NCBI GenBank assembly: GCA_032358255.1
Contig: JAULBX010000337.1
Coordinates: forward strand, 62,001 to 126,000
Direction of reading: 5' to 3'
From: Heterotrichella gracilis
Taxonomy: Eukaryota > Sar > Xanthophyceae > Tribonematales > Xanthonemataceae
Length of the DNA stretch: 64,000 nucleotides
The position numbers and the translations under genes are program-made. Under the pieces are notes generated by a model that worked only from the letters and a program-made list of their open reading frames with translations, did not search any database and was not told where the DNA came from. Below, in pieces: positions 18,666-61,682 of the stretch (the first letter of the stretch is position 1; every line of letters starts with the position of its first letter).

Positions 18666-21600
18666 ATGGCTCCCACGCCCCGCAGCCCTGAAGGGGCTCG
18701 GCGGCTTGCTGGCCGTGGCTTCTTGGGCCACTGCCAGCCAGCGCTGCTGGTGCTGGCGCTGGTGGTGTGCAACATGCACGTCGCCGATGCGTTCTGGGGC
18801 CTCCATTGGCCGTCCGCTCTTGGCAAGGTTGGCTTCTCGGCTGGCTCTCACAGCAGCGGCAAGAGCACCAGCAGGACCCACGGCAAGGGATACAAGGTCG
18901 CACAACACCACAAAGCCCGCAGAGCCTCGCCTAGCACCAACCCACATGCTTTTGCCGCAGTGGCCAACTCCACGCTGCCCGCCCACGTCAAGGTGAGCAC
19001 CGAACCCTCCTGGTGCACCATGTTCTTTGTTGACCAGTGCGCTGTTGGTGCTTGATGAAATCCACACACTGGGTTTTGGCAAGTTTGTGCATGCATGCTT
19101 ATTGCTCAACCCTGGTTTACCACCTTGTTTGGCTCTGACCAGTCCTCCCCCTTGGTGCAGACCAACGCACCCGTTCGCAGCAGGCGTAGCCTGATTGACG
19201 TCAACACGGACTTCACCAAAGGTACGTACTTCTTCTTCTTCTGTTTCTTTCTGCTCCTTGCACTCCTGCTTGCTCTGATGCAATGCCAGAGGCACCTGCT
19301 GCCTCTCATGCCTGCATTTGCTCCTGGACCCTTGCATGCCAAACCACTCCAAACCCCACCCGCAGTGCTGCACCAGGCACAGCTTGGCCAACTCCGCTCA
19401 CCCTTTCCCCCTCTGCCCCGCAGATGCCACCACCTGCGCTGCGCCCCGCAAGGGCTGCCAGAGCAGCAACAACACCCTCCCAGTTGCCTGGCCCAGCGGC
19501 TACCAGCTGGACAGCAACTATGACAACATTCCCACGTCAGACTTCATGACCAACCAGTGGGCAGCGTGCTGTGACCTGTGCACCCAGGAGACCACCTGCT
19601 GGCAGTTCACACTGACTGTATGGCCCATGTGGTTGCCGGACCCCTACAGTGCCATGTAAGTGCAGCCGGTGTGCAGTGCACTGGTGCAGGGTTTTGCCCA
19701 TAGTGGCTTGGCCTTGATTCTGAAGACTCCATATGTTGTGTGGACACTCTTGACACAACTCCTGCTCACCATTAAGTGTTGATGTTGGGTCTGTATAAGA
19801 TAACCGCCGCATGCATGACAAACGCGCACGCAGGTGCCCACTTGGGGTTGACTGACGTGTGGGTGGGTGCTTGTTGCAGTCCGGTGGATCAGCAGTGGGG
19901 CTTCCCATCCAACGACATGGCATACTGCTACCTGTGGCCCAAGGGGACAGTCATGCAGTGCGACTCCTACGACCCGCTGAACTGGGCTGGAACATACACA
20001 AGTAAGCACACCTGCAGCCAAGAATGCATTGCGGTTGCACACGTCAGCAACTTGCAGCAGCTGTTGCACGTCTGGATGCATGCACCTGTCAAGTTGCATC
20101 ACTGTCAGTTGGCAGCTATGTAACATGCGTTTGTGTGCCTTTGCAGCCTCAACAGAGAAACTGCCACCAGCCATGCCACCTCCACCGATACCACCACCAA
20201 CCCCTCCACCAGCACCGATAAGCCCACCTCTACCCCCACCCCCAAACCCACCATCTCCAAAGCCGCCAAGCCCCAAACCGCCTCCACCAAAACCACCATC
20301 GCCAGGCCCGCCTCCACCCAAGCCACCAAGCCCGACGCCCCCTCCACCAAGCCCAAAGCCGCCGCCACCAAATCCACCACCATCACCAAAGCCGCCGTCA
20401 CCATCCCCTCCTCCACCATTCCCGCCGCCTCCGCCAAAGCCGCCATCTCCAAAACCACCACCGCCGCCATCACCGAGCCCGCCAAGCCCAAAACCCCCAC
20501 CGCCAAGTCCACCGCCAAGTCCACAACCCCCATCCCCTTCGCCGATGCCCCCATCACCAGCCCCGCCACCCCCTCCATCGCCAACTCCTCCTTCACCAAC
20601 ACCGCCTTCACCTACACCACCGTCACCCACGCCGCCACCCCCACCTTCGCCACAACCGCCATCCCCCACGCCCCCATCCCCCACACCTCCTTCGCCTGAG
20701 CCTCCTTCCCCTGAGCCTCCTTCCCCTGAACCGCCTTCGCCCACACCACCTTCGCCACAACCGCCATCGCCCACGCCCCCTTCCCCCACACCTCCTTCGC
20801 CTGAGCCTCCTTCCCCTGAGCCTCCTTCCCCTGAGCCTCCTTCGCCACAACCGCCTTCGCCCACACCACCTTCGCCACAACCGCCTTCGCCCACACCACC
20901 TTCGCCACAACCGCCATCGCCCACGCCACCGTCACCCACACCTCCTTCGCCTGAACCTCCTTCCCCTGAACCTCCTTCGCCACAACCGCCATCTCCCACG
21001 CCCCCTTCCCCAACACCTCCTTCGCCTGAGCCTCCTTCCCCTGAGCCTCCTTCCCCTGAACCGCCTTCGCCTGAGCCTCCTTCCCCTGAGCCTCCTTCCC
21101 CTGAGCCTCCTTCCCCTGAACCACCGTCGCCCACGCCTCCTTTGCCCACACCGCCTTCGCCCACACCGCCTTCACCCGAGCCTCCTTTGCCTACCCCGCC
21201 ATCCCCAGAGCCTCCATCCCCAGTTGTCGACTCCCCACCACCACCCTCTCCAATTGTCAAGTCCCCTCCACCGCCATCGCCTGTGCCGCCATCCCCAATT
21301 GTCGACTCCCCACCACCACCATCCCCAATTGTCGACTCCCCACCACCACCATCCCCGGTTGTTGACTCCCCACCGCCACCCTCCCCAGTGGTTGCCGACT
21401 CCCCACCACCCTCCCCAGTGGTTGTCGCTTCCCCTGCACCAGCACCAGTGGCTGTGGGCTCGCCACCGCCCACCTCAGTCGTGACCTCCACACCCCCTGC
21501 CACAGCTATCGAGTCCCCTCCACCCCCTGCCGATGCCTTGGCGCCAGCTCCTTCCGATGGCAGTACATCAGGAGGTGCCCTGGTTGACTCCCCTCCCCCT

Positions 21601-53295: not shown

Positions 53296-55544
53296 ATGGA
53301 GTCGGTCTTTGTCCCTGACTGCCCTGTGTGCTTCGAGGAGCTGGGCCACAATGGAGGCGCCACCACCTTGACTTGCGGTGCGTGAAATGCATGCCCACGT
53401 TGGGTTTAGCATGGTATGTATTTCTCGGGAACTTCGGCAAGCACTATGAATGGGTCTATTTGCAATGAAACTGCACATCTGCCATTTGTTTTCCCTAGCC
53501 GCGCAGGCCAGAGCAAAGCATGTTCAGTTTGTGGGCACATCCTTTCACACACTCACATGCTTGCACTCTACTCAAGGCTGGACTTTATTGGCACTTTACT
53601 CTCAAATGGGTACCCGCAATATTGCTGCACAGCTTCTGATAGCTGTTGGTGTTGAGGCTCAGCAGTGGGTTGCTGCCTTATCACCATTGTGACACCTGTA
53701 GTGGCATGTAATACACAGCTGCACCACTCCTGTACATCACACCACTTTCTGAAAACCTTCTAAGGCTAAAGCTTGTCACCGCCGCAGGACACAACGGGTG
53801 CCTGGACTGTATGTGCAAAGTGCAGCAGCACAAGCCAGAGTGCCCACTTTGCCGCACCGCATTCAAGAAGAAGGTGCAGCTGACTGTCAACACTGGGCTG
53901 CAAGCACTGGTTTGCCAGGCAAACTCATTGTCAAGGCCGGTCCCCGAGGCGCAACCACCGGCAACGCGCAAGGTATGGGCAGCATGTGGTTGCACGTCAG
54001 GCAAGCGGGATGCCAAACACACATTGCAGGGTTGACTGTTGAATATATAATGCTGTTGTTGTGGATAGCTGGTTGGCCTTGCACGTTGGAGTTGTAACAA
54101 ACTATGAAGCAAGCCTGAAGGGCATACCCTTTGGCTGCTGCTGTTGGATTTTCATATGCATAGGCCCTTGCATTGTTTGAGCCGGGCGCTTCAATCAAAA
54201 CCCTAAACCCTAAACTCCTGTGCGGCTGTGCAGCGCCAGCGTGGTGTAAGAGCGACACAAGGGAGCCAGGCACCCCTCCGGATACAAGTCCCTGACTGCC
54301 CTGTGTGCAGCGAGGAGTTAGGCCATAACGGCGGACCAGCCACCCTGCCCTGCGGTGGGTTAATCCTATGCGTGTCGACCTGGAATTGACCTCGTCATGC
54401 TGCAGCTGCAGCATGACTGCGCCCATGCCCCTTACAATGGACCCATTTCGTGTCTACCTGGTTCCCCAGTACACTTGAATTTGTCGAGCCAACTGTAACG
54501 CCCCTACACTTGACCATGCATTTGCCGCCGACACTGCTTGCCACGACAACCCTCCCCTCCCAGTTACCAGACACATCAATAACTGCACATACTCCTCGCA
54601 ATGTTCCGCCTGCATCAATCCCCACCCACCCTTTTCCAGGCCACAATGGGTGCCTGGCATGCCTCGTGGACAAGCAGGGCTGCTCCCCGCATTGCCCCGA
54701 CTGTGCGCAGCGCTTCAGCCGGCGGCTGATCCTCAGAGTGAACACCGAGCTGCGCACACTGGTGCAGCAGGCAGGCCCCCTGGTGGGGCCACGGCCACCC
54801 TGCACGCGAGCAAGCAAGGTGAGGGTACCTGCTGGGGGTCCATTGGTGGGCAGGGGGGTCTTGCGTTCCTCTTACTCAATCAACTGCCATCGGGTAGCAT
54901 AGAATTTTGTTTATTCGTATTATTTTTGTTGCTTTTGTGTCTCTAAAACACAATACTGAAAAGGTGGAGGGCGCATTTAGGTGCGCATGTAAGCCTTGTA
55001 CTGTGCACATGCCATTGCACCTATCAACACTTCGCACACCCAGGCATGCATGTTGCAACACCTATGATTGCGTGATGCACAAGGCAGTGGGATTGTGTTC
55101 AAAAACAGTACTTGTTGCGTTTTGCAGCGGCGGCGAGGTGCGGCTGGAGCTGCCTTTCCCAACCCCTGCGATCAGCCGCTGGCTTCTTCCGATGAGTCCT
55201 CAGAGTGCCCTGAGATGAATTCAGACGGCGGTGAATCGTTCGACACGGTGGGCAGCTCTGACCTGGATTCAATCATCTCAGGGGGAGACACCGATGGGGA
55301 GTCGAGGAATTCTGAATCAGACTCGGACTCGGACTCAGAGATCGATTCAGACTCAGAGCCAGAGACGGATCTGTCTGGGTATTACGACGAGATTGTAGCA
55401 AGGTCAGCACAGATTCGGGCTGAATACCTTGAGTCAAGCGATGATGCCACCTCAGATGACTTGGACTCGGATGAATCGGACTCAGAATGGGACGAGGAGG
55501 ATGATCTGTATTTCAGCCAAACAGCTTTGCTGGTAAGTTGCTGA
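53296..55544 (+). CDS. Double RING finger protein with acidic Ser/Asp tail
   Basis: Five exons (53296-53377, 53788-53972, 54234-54354, 54640-54818, 55128-55544) give 327 aa. RING 1 (CPVC, TCGHNGCLDC, CPLC) and RING 2 (CPVC, PCGHNGCLAC, CPDC) both have the C3HC4 pattern. Both share the linker style VNTxLxxLV with the RING-SIM neighbour, and both are split by an intron in the same glycine codon, so they arose by duplication. The C-terminal exon encodes a strongly acidic, Ser-rich stretch (SESDSDSDSEIDSDSEPE) that looks like a CK2 target or histone-binding tail. No SIM was seen. E3 ligase activity is inferred. The end is uncertain: a strong GTAAGT donor overlaps the last codons, and skipping to an acceptor near 55589 would add about 37 residues. 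Confidence 0.75.
54197..54215. repeat. Interstitial telomere-type repeat (CCCTAAA)
   Basis: AAAACCCTAAACCCTAAAC just upstream of exon 3 of the double RING gene, inside the intron and near the acceptor. Confidence 0.85.
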
Positions 55545-56565
55545 TGTTTTGTTGCCCTTTCACTCAACGCAGGCATAATATTACCCTGCAGCATCTGTCA
55601 CAGTCCCTTGCAAAATCATCATGGCAGCTTTATAATCTGCCACGATGTCAGATGCTGGTGGGCAGTGGAATGGCAGCAGTGTTGCACGTGCAAGCCACTG
55701 AGTGAATGTACACTTGAGCACTTTACCGCAAATGGTGCCTGCCACCACTCGGCAGGGCCCAGCCCATTTTGTCATTCTGGTCCAGTTTGGCTCATTATGG
55801 CATCTCATGGTCTGGTTGTTTATTTTACATCCATAAAGTGCTCTGGTATGCATCATGCTTTGCAGGCACTCACTCGACTTCTGTGGCTGGCTTGCAGGCA
55901 TACATAATGATGATGACTTAGGTATCACAGACGATGTGCAACCCCAGCATAGAGTTCAATCAGGGCTGGGGTAGGCTTGCTGTCCAACCTTGCTGTAGGA
56001 CGACCCGGGATGAGGCCTCAGAGGAAGAGTGTTGTGCAGAGCAGGGGAGCAAATCAGTTGTAATGTAGGTGATCAGTGGTTTTCATATGTGAAGTAGGGT
56101 GCAGAAGCTGTACTGGGCAGACATGGCCCTTGGAGTAATTGAGAATTCGGCTCAGCTGGTGGGACTTACAGGGAGGGCATTAGGAGGCTGCTTTGTATTT
56201 TATGCACTGCCATGCGAATTGGTGGCCACGCAGGCTATGCCCTGCAAGTTCAGGGCTGTTGCCGATTGTACAACACTTGCAGTGCACGCCTTGAGCACGC
56301 CTTAGGCGCATTGTGCGCCAGTAACATGATTATGCTGTAGTATGCTGCTCAATAGATTTAGGCGTACACTCCAGGGCGGTGCCAATTTACTGACAGTAAA
56401 TGTTCAGCTTTAAGTTTTCAGGAGGTAGAATGTGGAATCACCCAGAATAGAAGGCGACGAGCCATTGGATCATGTTTCATGTTCTCTGCAAGTATTTATT
56501 GGCGCTTTGGGGTCTTTTGTTTGCGTTGGCCTGTGGTGCATTGGCTACTCCTTGGCGCTGGCAGC
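55545..56565. other. Convergent spacer, double RING / TTM3
   Basis: About 1 kb between converging 3' ends. No conserved coding segment was found. It includes a possible extra 3' exon of the double RING gene just after 55589. Confidence 0.45.
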
Positions 56566-58753
56566 TCACAGCAGTGTGCGATTGATGAAATTTGCAAACT
56601 TGGATGTTTTGCTGTAGCTGTACTCCACCCCATGCTCCACCAGCAGGGCCTCGAGCTTGGGCTTGTCGATGTCTGGGTTGGGCTGCACAGGGAAAGGCAC
56701 CTTCAGGCTGAGGTGCATCATATTTCTAAGTGGTTGCCATGTTGGGTTGTCCATAGCTCCTAGTGTGGCTATGCTCCACCAGTTGGTTTTTGTTTTGTAC
56801 TTTTTTCAACACAGATGCTCCTGGGCTTATATACAACGACGTGCTAATCTGACTGTGACAGGTCATGCTGTGCAATTGTCAGTGACCCACAGGTGGCTTT
56901 TGGGCTCACAATTTAACACTCGTGTCATTCAGCATGAGATTGATCGCTGCGCCGCATGCGGCATTAAGCAGTTCTATCTTGGCATTGTTCACACCACTTG
57001 TTGGATGTTGCGCAATAAAAAGAGCACAATTCCATTGTGGAATGTATGTAGCCAGCTACCTAGCTGTCAGCTCACCGTTTCCATCTCCATTTCGTACAGC
57101 GTGCCCCACTCATACTGCGTCTCATCAAGCTCCAGGGTCAGACCGCCGTCCCACCCGTACTCTCGCCGCACGTTGCGGAACCCGCCCAGGCCCATCATGG
57201 AAGTCAAGCCATTTGTACTGCAGTTCATGAATGGGGTTTTAGGAGAATATGACACGCATTGCAGGGTTGCTGGGCAGATGGCTAGATGAGCATGCCATGG
57301 AGTCAAGTCATGCCTGCAGCCTGGACTGAAAATACTGTATTTAGGGATTACTCTACACAGGAATTGTGATTCTACAGCACTGTCACCCAAACTAGCTCTA
57401 TACAGTCACAACTACATGCGAGCCCCATGTAATGCACGCATCCACCCGACAGTGGCCACCCGCCATGCAATCCCGTCCTCCAAAAGTCGCGCAGCCATCC
57501 ATGCCCACCCTCACCTCTTGAGGTGCTGCAACAGCGGTGACTCCTGGTCCAGCAGCAGGTCAGGTGTGTCCAGGAAGGTGCGCGCGGTGGCGGGCGCAAT
57601 GTCCTCCTCCACTTCTGAGGCGGTGCCCACACCATCCTTCAGGATCTGCTCGCCCTGCAAGGGGAGGGAGGTGGGGGGAAGGATGGGTAAGAATACCATT
57701 TTACCAGGTGAAAACGGATTGTAAATTCTTGTTCAATTGCTTTTACCCTAAACCCTAGACAATATAATATTACTAAGTTGTTTTTAACTATTCATTCATA
57801 ATCGAGGCATTTCAAGGAACGTGAGACACAAATGTATGAATGCGGGCAACTCTGTCATGCATGGCGCTGAATGGAACGGCCTATGCATTGCTCTAGCCCA
57901 TGCCCCCCATGCTTGGGGAGTGATGGAGGGAGGATGGGGCAAGTGTGTGCTTGGTGCAGGTGGTCGATGCGGCGGCATAGGCATGTGAGGAGGGCCTGCA
58001 TTGTGATGCAAACCCTTATGCCAAGCCCACACACCATCCTGCCTGAAACCACTTCTATAGGAGGCAATGCACAAATCCACGAATGACATCAGCCCCGCCC
58101 CACCTTGCAGGTGATGACCGCCTTGCGATCCCTGTCGTAGAACCGCACGCGCAACACCACCCGCCTGCTGTTGAGCTCGCGCTGCGCACCGTCGAAGAAG
58201 AAGTTCTCCTGCTGGTGGGTGGCGCGCAGGCGGGGCTCGAGGGCGGCCGCCAGCTTGGCGTGTGCCTCGGCGTTGGGCAGGCGCAGCTTCACCTCAACCT
58301 GAGTGGTTGGGAAAGGAGAGGGATGCAGATGGGTGGTCTGGGAATGGCAAACCTGTCAATGGGTGCTGATGTGCATGTTGGGCAGGCAGCGGGTGGGGTG
58401 GGTGGTGGGGTATGCTGGCCGCGCCAAGTTGGGTGGGCGTACCTCCATGCCACCAGTGGGGGCAGTACTTCCAGGCTGTGCCATGCTGGTTGCTGCACGG
58501 TGCTGGTTTGCGGAGGAAAAGTGGCGCAGTGGATGTGCTTGGCTGTTGTTGCAATGTCTGAGTCGGACTGGGGGTTTGAGTTTGGTGCGGACTGATGCCA
58601 AAGCTGTTGTGGGTGGATGGTGTAGCAGCCGGGTGGCGAGAGACATTCTACAACTGCACAACACCTCCATTGCACTGTCGCATACAAGGTATGAGGGTTG
58701 AAGGCAGAAAGGCATGCGTGGCTCACTGCTAATGTATGTGGCCTTACCTGCAT
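56566..58753 (-). CDS. TTM3: Triphosphate tunnel metalloenzyme (CYTH domain), TTM3 type
   Basis: Five exons (58753-58748, 58298-58104, 57654-57515, 57217-57076, 56682-56566) encode 199 aa, near the ~210 aa of Arabidopsis TTM3. It starts MQVEVKLRLPNAEAH, where plants have MEVEVKLRL. Further tunnel strands are present: HQQENFFFDG, RRVVLRVRFYDRD, ITCKGEQ, GGFRNVRREYGWDG, LELDETQYEWG and SKTSKFANF. The family hydrolyses inorganic tripolyphosphate. The first Glu of the EXEXK signature is Gln here, which may lower activity. The tiny first exon encodes only Met-Gln, so the start could in principle lie upstream at 58810 in the same frame. The gene follows CDC26 on the same strand, as in the plant bicistronic transcript. 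Confidence 0.88.
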
Positions 58754-58860
58754 CACTTTTGCAGGCCAATGCGCTGTGCAACGGTTGGCTTCTTGTCCTA
58801 CAAAGGGCATTTGGAGCAATAGTTAGCCCACTGTAAGATGATGTACGAAAGGATTGGTCC

Positions 58861-59219
58861 CTAAACGGCTGCTAAGATGGGCATAGGCAATGCATACATG
58901 CCTATATGCATGCATATGCACATGCGGGCAGACCAAACCCATACCAGCTGGAAGGACAACGCTCCCTGTGAAGTGGACTGGGTTTCTGCTGCCAAACGGT
59001 CTTGCGCGGCCTTCTTTGCTGCTTCGTACTGCAACAGGGGCAATACTTGTCAACAGCATGCAAGGAACATCGAGCCCTGGGCCACAGAGGTTCAGCCTGG
59101 CGGTTGCTCGGTGTTTATTAAAAACCGCTGTTTAAACACAAGATTTTTCCCAGTGATTTCCGTGCCTCTTCCTTGTCTTCGGGCCTCAGCTCTATTCTCG
59201 TGGGCTTCCTTCTTAGCAT
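58861..59219 (-). CDS. CDC26: CDC26/APC12 subunit of the anaphase-promoting complex
   Basis: Small gene of two clear exons (59219-59166 and 59028-58861) encoding 73 aa as drawn. The N-terminus MLRRKPTRIELRPEDKEE|YE matches human and plant CDC26 (MLRRKPTRLELK...EEFE), the segment that enters the TPR groove of APC6. A Lys/Gln/Ala-rich helix follows (AAKKAAQDRLAAE). The only intron giving this match uses a GC donor (GAG|GCACGG) and a CAG acceptor. The 3' end is uncertain. The frame runs to a stop at 58861, but a GTATGG donor after ...GALSFQL may instead splice to an acceptor near 58875. That would extend the frame to a TGA just past the TTM3 start. The N-terminal identity is strong; the C-terminus is not. 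Confidence 0.8.
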
Positions 59220-59682
59220 GGTGTCGAATTGCTATAGCTCAAGATGCTCTTGCATGTGGCCGCTATTGCAACCCTCCAAGCGCATCGGTGCGAACCCGTA
59301 ACCACCACTTATCAGCTGCCAGTCAGCTGCTACGTTCTGCGAGGATACTTTCGCTTTTACTAAAAGTTTTAGAGAAACCCAGGTCCTTCCCAGAGCCTGG
59401 TCACCAGGCTGGTGTTGGGCTCCTGCAGGGTGAGCCTGGTCACCAGGCTGGTGTTGGGCTCCTCATGAGTTGCAGACCTACTATTCCGAGTTGAGCAGGG
59501 TTGGCATAATGACCAATTAAGCGGTTAGCAACGTGGCACCTATAAGTTCCACCACATAAGCTTCAACCCATATCGTGGCTTTGGCAAGGCCTTGCCATCT
59601 ACCTCCCACGCAGACACCTGCATGCCCATGCATGCATAGCCCGCAGTGCTGAGATAGCTAACTTCCTTCTAGATGCTACTGA
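59220..59682. promoter_or_regulatory. Divergent promoter, CDC26-TTM3 / cobalamin adenosyltransferase
   Basis: A 463-bp spacer between head-to-head starts. It contains two exact 32-bp direct repeats (59393-59424 and 59432-59463), each with a perfect palindrome, which are candidate shared regulatory sites. Confidence 0.6.
59393..59463. repeat. Two identical 32-bp repeats with internal palindrome
   Basis: Copies at 59393-59424 and 59432-59463, period 39 bp. Each begins GAGCCTGGTCACCAGGCTGG, and GCCTGGTCACCAGGC is a palindrome around a central C. Their position in a divergent promoter suggests tandem operator-like sites; inference only. Confidence 0.85.
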
Positions 59683-61682
59683 ATGCTGGTCACAACTAGG
59701 TTCCTGTTCCGTCGCTGTAGACGTGGTGTCTCCTTGTTGCCCCACTGTTCAATTGAGGGCAGTCTAGATCTGGAACGGCAGGCGTCATTTTGTAGTGACA
59801 CCTCGAGTGGGCGAGTTGCTGCAATGGCCGACACACAGAAGAGGTATGCTATGGTCAAGAAGGCTCCACTGCTTGCCCAAACCTCCACGCCTTGCTTGCA
59901 GTGCAACCCAGAAGCACAGCACAATGCATGCATATGCCTCATACCTAGAATTGCCCAGCACAATGCATACACATCCCTCATTTTCTAGAACTGCCCAGCA
60001 CCTTGTACGATTAGGCCTTGGTTGCATCAACCTCTGGCTCAGTTCAGTGGGACATCTGTGTGCGAATAGGTACAAGGTGTACACCAAGACAGGCGACAAG
60101 GGCGAGTCTAGCCTGTACAACGGGCAGCGCAAGCCGAAGCATGACCCAACCTTCCAAGCCCTGGGAGACGTGGATGAGCTGAACTCTGTCATTGGGGTTG
60201 CGCGCGAGTGCTGCCGCGGGCTGGATGCTTCTCTTGAGGAGCAGGTAAGCGTCGCTGAAGTCTGCACAGGCCAACCACAACAGTACCCTACAACCCTAGA
60301 CCCTCATCAAATACAACAGGTGGTGGTCTGTGTAATCAAACGTTTCGCATGCCAGCGTTCTGCAGCATGCATGCCAATGCTATTCCCTGGGCAAGGCGCT
60401 GACCCAACCCGCTGGGGTGTCCACGCCATGAGTGGCTGCACATATGCTCCGGAGTGGATCCATCCATGCCTGCAGCTGGACGAGTTGGCTGTGTAAATCA
60501 TATAATTTGTGTGCATGCCAGCGCCCTGTAGCATGCGTGGCAATACTTAACCCTGTGCAAGACACTGCTCTAACATGCTGTGACACCCATGCCATCCCAC
60601 ATGCAAAGGCTGACAACACACCCCAGCACCTCACCCCATTTTGCGCCCCGGCATGCAGCTTGAAGAGATCCAGTCTCGCCTGCTGGACGTGGGCGCCGCG
60701 GTGGCTACACCCATAGACACCTCCTCCGATGCCAAGGTGCAGCGCACGCAGTTTTCTGAGGAGCACGTATCCAGCCTGGAGGCATGGATTGACGCCATGG
60801 ATGAGCACCTGCCACCCCTGCGCAACTTCATCCTGCCATCAGGTGGGCCATCATGGGGGTAATCATGCCACTGCATTGTGAAGCCCTGCTTGCCTTCTCG
60901 GATTTTCGGGTCCCTTCCTTTCTTGAGGCGTTCTCGTTAAATGTAATTTCTGCATCATCATTGTTTCTGATGCGCTGGCATGATGCCCTGCATGATGGCC
61001 CTGGCATGGGTCACCCCCACCATCACCATGTCTGATGGGTGACGACACAGGTTTATGTCTGTATTTTGCATTATTTCCTGCTTGTTTCTTAATGTAATTA
61101 ATCTGCCCCAGGTGGCCAGGGCGCCTCTTTCCTGCACATGGCGCGCTCAATCTGCAGGCGGGCGGAGCGGGCGGTGGTGGTGCTGGTGCATTCCAACAGC
61201 ACCGATGCAGTTGTGGGCATCTACCTCAACAGGCTCAGCGACTACCTCTTCACCGCTGCACGCTACGCGGTAAGGCCACGTGCACCAAGCAATTGCCAGG
61301 GCTACCCATGACGCATGAAGCGTATATACAAACATAAAAGGCATATACAAACAAACAAACAGATAGGCATGTATACTAGGCCGCATGGTGGTGCACTGGA
61401 AGTGGCGCGAGCACTTTGTAAGGGGGGCTATGTGACAATTAAAACTCTTTGCTGTCAGCAGAGTGGGGTCCCATCGTGCCACACACAGATCATGTACGGC
61501 TGCCATCGCGACTAGCTGTCAAGGGTGCTGCATGCAAAGCTGTACCATGCTTGCATACAATCCCAGGCCAATATTGGCGGCTCATGTTGTGACCCACCAC
61601 AGCCACCAACAGCGGTCCATGTGTCGCGCAGGCAAAGCTAGCAAATCAGCCAGAGACAATATGGAAGAAAGCCACCACCTGA
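59683..61682 (+). CDS. MMAB: Cob(I)alamin adenosyltransferase, PduO/MMAB type
   Basis: Five exons (59683-59843, 60070-60244, 60659-60842, 61112-61269, 61632-61682) encode 242 aa in perfect phase. Residues 1-50 are Arg/Ser-rich ([12 protein letters not shown]), suiting a mitochondrial presequence. The enzyme core shows [15 protein letters not shown] (ATP-binding N-terminus), [41 protein letters not shown] and [16 protein letters not shown]. The Arg/Glu residues of the active site are kept. The last exon is tiny but closes the family C-terminus ([16 protein letters not shown]). The enzyme makes adenosylcobalamin, which points to a B12-dependent methylmalonyl-CoA mutase elsewhere in the genome. 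Confidence 0.93.

Follow-up and report, generated by a model that had tools for sequence, protein, structure and literature searches.

A CDC26-TTM3 Locus in an Algal Genome: A Likely Bicistron With a Predicted Intron Behind the First Stop Codon

Introduction

Are CDC26 and TTM3, which lie one behind the other on the minus strand of this algal DNA, expressed from a single mRNA, or are they independent genes whose proximity is accidental? In Arabidopsis the two ORFs are reported to share a bicistronic transcript (CDC26-TTM3, At2g11890; Lorenzo-Orts et al., 2019, as cited in PMC7943633, PMC6973038, and PMC11291117). Excerpts of a 2024 preprint (PMC11291117) and of its PNAS version (PMC11892635) give CDC26_TTM3 as a high-confidence bicistron of Chlamydomonas, a class for which ribosome profiling and conservation in field isolates are among the requirements, and state that the pair is conserved in plants and green algae. 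The earlier note on this DNA had pointed out the plant arrangement in an alga, which in light of these publications is not new. From its proposal of a plant-like bicistron, the gene order and, by analogy with the published relatives, the bicistronic reading can be kept, while the drawn TTM3 start, the length of the spacer and the novelty cannot. We put the probability that the two genes form a single bicistronic mRNA, as the green-algal form of a known gene pair, at about 85%.

Gene Identities, Order and Genome

The window, i.e. the whole stretch of 64,000 nucleotides that was analyzed, covers positions 62001-126000 of one contig (C6), and the genome that was searched comprises 68.5 Mb in 903 contigs. 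CDC26 (59219-58753, three exons, 60 amino acids) and the core of TTM3 (58448-56566, five exons, 199 amino acids) are adjacent and colinear on the minus strand, in this order and with a short spacer between them, such that the CDC26 start at 59219 and the TTM3 stop at 56566 mark the exact ends of the pair. Order, strand and adjacency are as previously claimed, and so are the gene identities, both spliced proteins being above their Pfam cut-offs. The spliced CDC26 protein matches PF10471 (ANAPC_CDC26) with an E-value of 2.2e-10 and 41.7 bits (cut-off 24.5), begins with MLRRKPT and in its N-terminal part matches the CDC26 chains of solved APC/C structures (E 1.4e-4 to 4.2e-4). The spliced TTM3 core matches PF01928 (CYTH) with an E-value of 8.4e-18 and 65.3 bits (cut-off 23.2) and, over nearly its full length, four distinct solved sequences (E 2.2e-42 to 3.5e-32), namely 8h92 (TTM3-like), 6yp4 (adenylate cyclase), 3v85 (CYTH-like phosphatase) and 5a5y (TTM3). 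The other families listed for the spliced proteins, SVIP and DnaB_2, are both below their cut-offs.

Within CDC26, exon 1 (MLRRKPTRIELRPEDKEE; 59166..59219) opens with the start codon at 59219 and is delimited by the best-scoring of the enumerated in-frame donor/acceptor pairs, exon 2 (58945..59028) is placed by splice-site scores, and exon 3 (58753..58797) ends with the stop codon TGA at 58755-58753. Intron 1 (59165-59029) is predicted to be of the GC-AG type (GAG/GCACGG). A canonical GT donor was rejected for it: with the end of exon 2 and exon 3 fixed and GC donors penalized by 6 bits, the best GT pair reached -5.9 compared to 5.7 for the GC-AG pair 59165/59028. In its own frame CDC26 has a coding score of +0.27 bits per codon.

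In the profile search of the whole genome (E limit 0.001), CYTH has a single match over the cut-off, which is at this locus. CDC26 likewise has a single match, at the same locus, which in the unspliced search comprises exon 1 only and, with 22.2 bits, is below the cut-off; these searches proceed exon by exon, so that a divergent second copy could escape them. We estimate the chance that two specified genes adjoin in a given order at approximately 1e-4, assuming about 10^4 genes. The nuclear RbcS of this genome scores best with 1ir2, 9hvm, 7jfo and 1gk8 (185-186 bits) and reaches 135 bits with 1ir1. Taking 1gk8 and 7jfo to be from Chlamydomonas and 1ir1 from spinach, these scores fit a chlorophyte genome, the affiliation that the earlier note had suggested.

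Upstream of CDC26, a cobalamin adenosyltransferase gene (PF01923; 59824..60862, plus strand, start at 59824 read from the sequence, end at 60862 provisional) runs in the opposite direction, leaving a divergent spacer of 604 bp. Its predicted first intron contains a two-copy tandem repeat of 39 nt (59917-60001). On the 3' side of TTM3, and convergent with it, lies an acidic Ser/Asp-rich open frame on the plus strand (55068-55544), which has no Pfam match above cut-off. Elsewhere in the window, positions 20579-21467 carry C-rich tandem repeats of the type CCTCCTTCGCC, with periods from 15 to 105 nt and a GC skew near -0.5; at a guess, this is possibly a proline-rich coding region of the cell-wall type.

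The TTM3 Start and the Spacer

TTM3 had been drawn with a start near 58646, which made the spacer about 107 bp long and seemed to leave no room for a promoter. The plant-type start MEVEVKLRL is found instead at ATG 58448, where it aligns with residue 1 of 6yp4 (MEIEIKLRL), and 304 nt of genomic sequence separate this ATG from the CDC26 stop, as opposed to 106 nt for 58646. The start would lie in a predicted exon at 58443..58502, which has candidate acceptors at 58502 and 58492 and in-frame ATGs at 58484 and 58448. It is followed by an exon encoding VEVKLRL...ITCK of the CYTH domain (58104..58298), by exons at 57515..57654 and 57076..57217 (MMGLGGFRNVRREYGW...), and by the last exon (56566..56682), all on the minus strand. 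Acceptor 57217 is the weakest site accepted (-1.5 bits), and was retained because it is the sole AG in 57260-57170 and the protein is continuous across it. Four TTM3 exons were tested for coding potential and score +0.29 to +0.79 bits per codon in their own frames. By contrast, the value for 58646-58503 is -0.42 bits per codon when read in the TTM3 frame and -0.23 in the best other frame; the introns of the same gene range from -0.49 to -0.79 in frame 0. A start near 58646 with an extension resembling a transit peptide, which has neither a coding signal nor a Pfam match, was rejected as the main model. The 20 codons of 58502-58443 are also without coding score (-0.34).

The spacer length alone excludes nothing, because it is 304 nt here and the 604 bp upstream of CDC26 must serve two genes. 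The published median inter-ORF distance of bicistrons is 183 nt in Chlamydomonas and 40 nt in Auxenochlorella, while the medians for colinear monocistronic genes are 3415 and 2518 nt, respectively. The spacer found here, 304 nt in the genome or 49-59 nt after predicted splicing, is near the bicistronic medians and far from the monocistronic ones.

A Predicted Intron Behind the CDC26 Stop

Splice sites were scored with profiles trained on the genome itself, using 41 introns in 11 chaperonin genes. For this purpose 57 of the 67 chaperonin exon matches were used, and a solution was obtained for all 41 eligible exon pairs. The training introns (82-552 nt) are computed rather than transcript-confirmed, each having been chosen by score from 5.7 candidates on average, and yield the consensus CAG/GTGRGT for the donor and GCAG/G for the acceptor. 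With these profiles the top donor of the locus (CAG/GTAAGG, 58742..58750, minus strand, first intron base 58747) sits 5 nt past the CDC26 stop. Its score of 10.47 bits is the best of the 22 GT donors with at least 4 bits on the minus strand between 59300 and 56500, with a narrow lead over 58103 and 57514 (10.5 as against 10.3 and 10.2 bits). The 128 kb of strand contain 37 donors of this strength (0.29 per kb), so that the probability of finding one no more than 10 nt from a given point is about 0.003, for a point that was picked post hoc. The position and strength of donor 58747 suggest that it is the 5' end of an intercistronic intron.

On the acceptor side the scores are 5.4 bits for 58492, 1.2 for 58502 and 9.1 for 58298, such that no acceptor upstream of the exon end at 58443 is both strong and in frame, and 58502 falls below the lowest training acceptor (2.8 bits). 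Splicing to 58492 or 58502 would bring ATG 58448 to 49 or 59 nt from the CDC26 stop, and would remove at least four ATGs (58715, 58683, 58670 and 58646). Counted from 58753 on, six AUGs precede ATG 58448 in the unspliced RNA and two with either acceptor. The first of these overlaps the CDC26 stop (TGATG, ATG at 58753-58751) and is in the TTM3 frame if 58502 or 58298 is used, whereas it is out of frame in the unspliced RNA and with 58492, where it opens an ORF of 21 codons that overlaps the TTM3 start. Splice choice also affects the ExExK motif, which we take to lie at the TTM3 N-terminus: it is complete with the exon ending at 58443, whereas joining 58747 to 58298 replaces the first Glu by Gln and gives the product MQVEVKLRL. 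In 8h92 a Gly is aligned at the position of this first Glu, so that the MQVEVKLRL form is conceivable.

An inter-ORF intron is not mentioned in the published material to the extent of the excerpts at hand, and the main text of PMC11892635 has no word beginning with "intron" or "overlapping." Stop and start codons that overlap are mentioned in PMC11291117 for some Auxenochlorella loci. In Arabidopsis, intergenic splicing is reported to favor read-through transcripts, in which, however, second ORFs are rarely translated and many second genes have separate starts (excerpts of PMC9768141). The post-stop donor thus fits read-through, but read-through alone is no proof that the second ORF is used. 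It is conceivable, if improbable, that the intron acts as a switch in which splice choice decides whether, and in which form, TTM3 is made. If so, retention of the intron would leave several AUGs in front of TTM3, splicing to 58502 or 58492 would make the full enzyme reachable, and splicing to 58298 would let the stop-overlapping AUG start TTM3 as MQVEVKLRL, with Gln in place of the first Glu of the catalytic motif.

From One Transcript to Two Proteins

TGTAA is the usual poly(A) signal of green algae. In this genome, 8.5 kb of sequence behind nine of the 11 chaperonin genes (stops being set at the first in-frame stop past the last exon match) contain 15 TGTAA motifs, where about 5.4 are expected from the frequency in the window (0.64 per kb), and eight of the nine genes have at least one. 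On the coding strand of the CDC26-TTM3 pair there is none from 59300 down to 56170, the first being located at 56166..56170 on the minus strand, approximately 395 nt past the TTM3 stop. At this frequency, the 2.65 kb of the pair would lack the motif by chance with a probability of about 0.18, and its absence was not accepted as proof of co-transcription, for which it is weak on its own. AATAAA occurs once in CDC26 intron 1 (59119) and once just past TTM3 (56500).

In the favored reading, the 604 bp 5' of CDC26 would contain one promoter that drives a single pre-mRNA through both genes, and the intercistronic intron would be spliced out of this pre-mRNA, as the splice-site scores suggest. Most ribosomes would translate CDC26, a subunit of the APC/C, while some would scan past its AUG, which has A at -3 and C at +4, and through the AUG-free ORF behind it, to start TTM3 at AUG 58484 or 58448. 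Both of these combine a purine at -3 with G at +4 (A and G for 58484, G and G for 58448), and AUG 58753 (G at -3, C at +4) would be the alternative start if acceptor 58502 is used; these contexts are read from the sequence, without reference to a genome-wide consensus. The C at +4 of CDC26 may only reflect Leu2, a residue common to the solved CDC26 chains. The CDC26 ORF contains no internal AUG, which was rejected as a sign of selection, zero being expected in 76% of synonymous versions (P = 0.76). Upstream of the CDC26 start, the ATGs at 59255, 59285 and 59466 would precede CDC26 in the mRNA unless the 5' UTR is short. TTM3 itself would be a soluble short-chain polyphosphatase, like the Arabidopsis protein.

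Leaky scanning is the probable route to TTM3, by analogy with in vivo work in Auxenochlorella, where the output of ORF2 in mutants is reported to be inverse to the strength of the ORF1 start, favoring leaky scanning over reinitiation and an IRES (excerpts of PMC11291117). The same result speaks against the strongest rival, in which the mRNA is likewise bicistronic, but TTM3 is translated by termination and reinitiation at the overlapping TGATG. CDC26 is short (60 codons), and the stop-overlapping AUG is brought into the TTM3 frame if 58502 or 58298 serves as the acceptor, both of which would suit such a mechanism; splicing to 58298, however, costs the first Glu of ExExK. We regard reinitiation as unlikely, its probability overlapping the figure given for the single mRNA.

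Less likely still are two independent close genes, with TTM3 transcribed from its own promoter, located between the ORFs or within the CDC26 introns, and CDC26 having a poly(A) site of its own. A promoter could be accommodated in the 304 nt between the ORFs, considering that the 604 bp on the other side of CDC26 serve two divergent genes. Against this reading, the orthologous Chlamydomonas pair is reported to be bicistronic (excerpts of PMC11291117 and PMC11892635), no TGTAA precedes the TTM3 end, and the strong post-stop donor is most easily explained by continuing transcription, although 3' UTR introns also exist. It is very unlikely that the bicistronic mRNA is accompanied by a TTM3-only mRNA that starts in the spacer, uses one of the in-frame AUGs 58715, 58670 or 58646 and encodes a TTM3 with an N-terminal extension (MSLATRLLHH...), possibly for targeting to an organelle. 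No stop interrupts the frame between 58871 and 58356, and the 48 codons from 58646 lack an acidic residue, but 58646-58503 scores negatively in any frame, compared to +0.27 to +0.79 for CDC26 and the four TTM3 exons tested, and TTM3 of Arabidopsis is reported to be cytosolic and nuclear in the literature excerpts.

Comparison With Known Bicistrons

The single bicistronic mRNA preferred here would have close counterparts. With CDC26_TTM3 of Chlamydomonas reinhardtii the locus shares CDC26 as ORF1, TTM3 as ORF2 and the location in the nuclear genome, and with CDC26-TTM3 of Arabidopsis the order, a small CDC26 as ORF1 and a TTM3 with a CYTH domain, the difference being that between an alga and a land plant. 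For the Arabidopsis bicistronic mRNA, NMD is reported to hold the level low, and translation of TTM3 to increase the output of CDC26 (excerpts of PMC11291117 and PMC11892635). The TTM3 junctions past the CDC26 stop would permit the same logic here, provided that NMD in this alga is junction-dependent. OST4-FAM32A, an algal bicistron according to excerpts of PMC11291117, is the one other published pair of which both members were sought, and the two genes are colinear in this genome as well (contig C899, locus L033, 1813-1329, minus strand, OST4 splice sites judged by eye). The pairs have colinearity and a small ORF1 in common, but consist of different genes, and the 16 nt between the OST4 and FAM32A ORFs leave no room for an inter-ORF intron. 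OST4 contains one internal AUG, so that strict freedom from AUGs in ORF1 is no rule. REX1B was also found in this genome, and TOM22 only as a match below the cut-off.

Conclusion

The locus adds one green-algal genome to a gene pair for which a shared mRNA is reported in plants and green algae. The reason for coupling the CDC26 and TTM3 proteins is not answered by the locus itself, but from the reported conservation of CDC26_TTM3 it is plausible that the arrangement is selected. The predicted inter-ORF intron would, by its removal, spare ribosomes that scan toward the second ORF a number of upstream AUGs.
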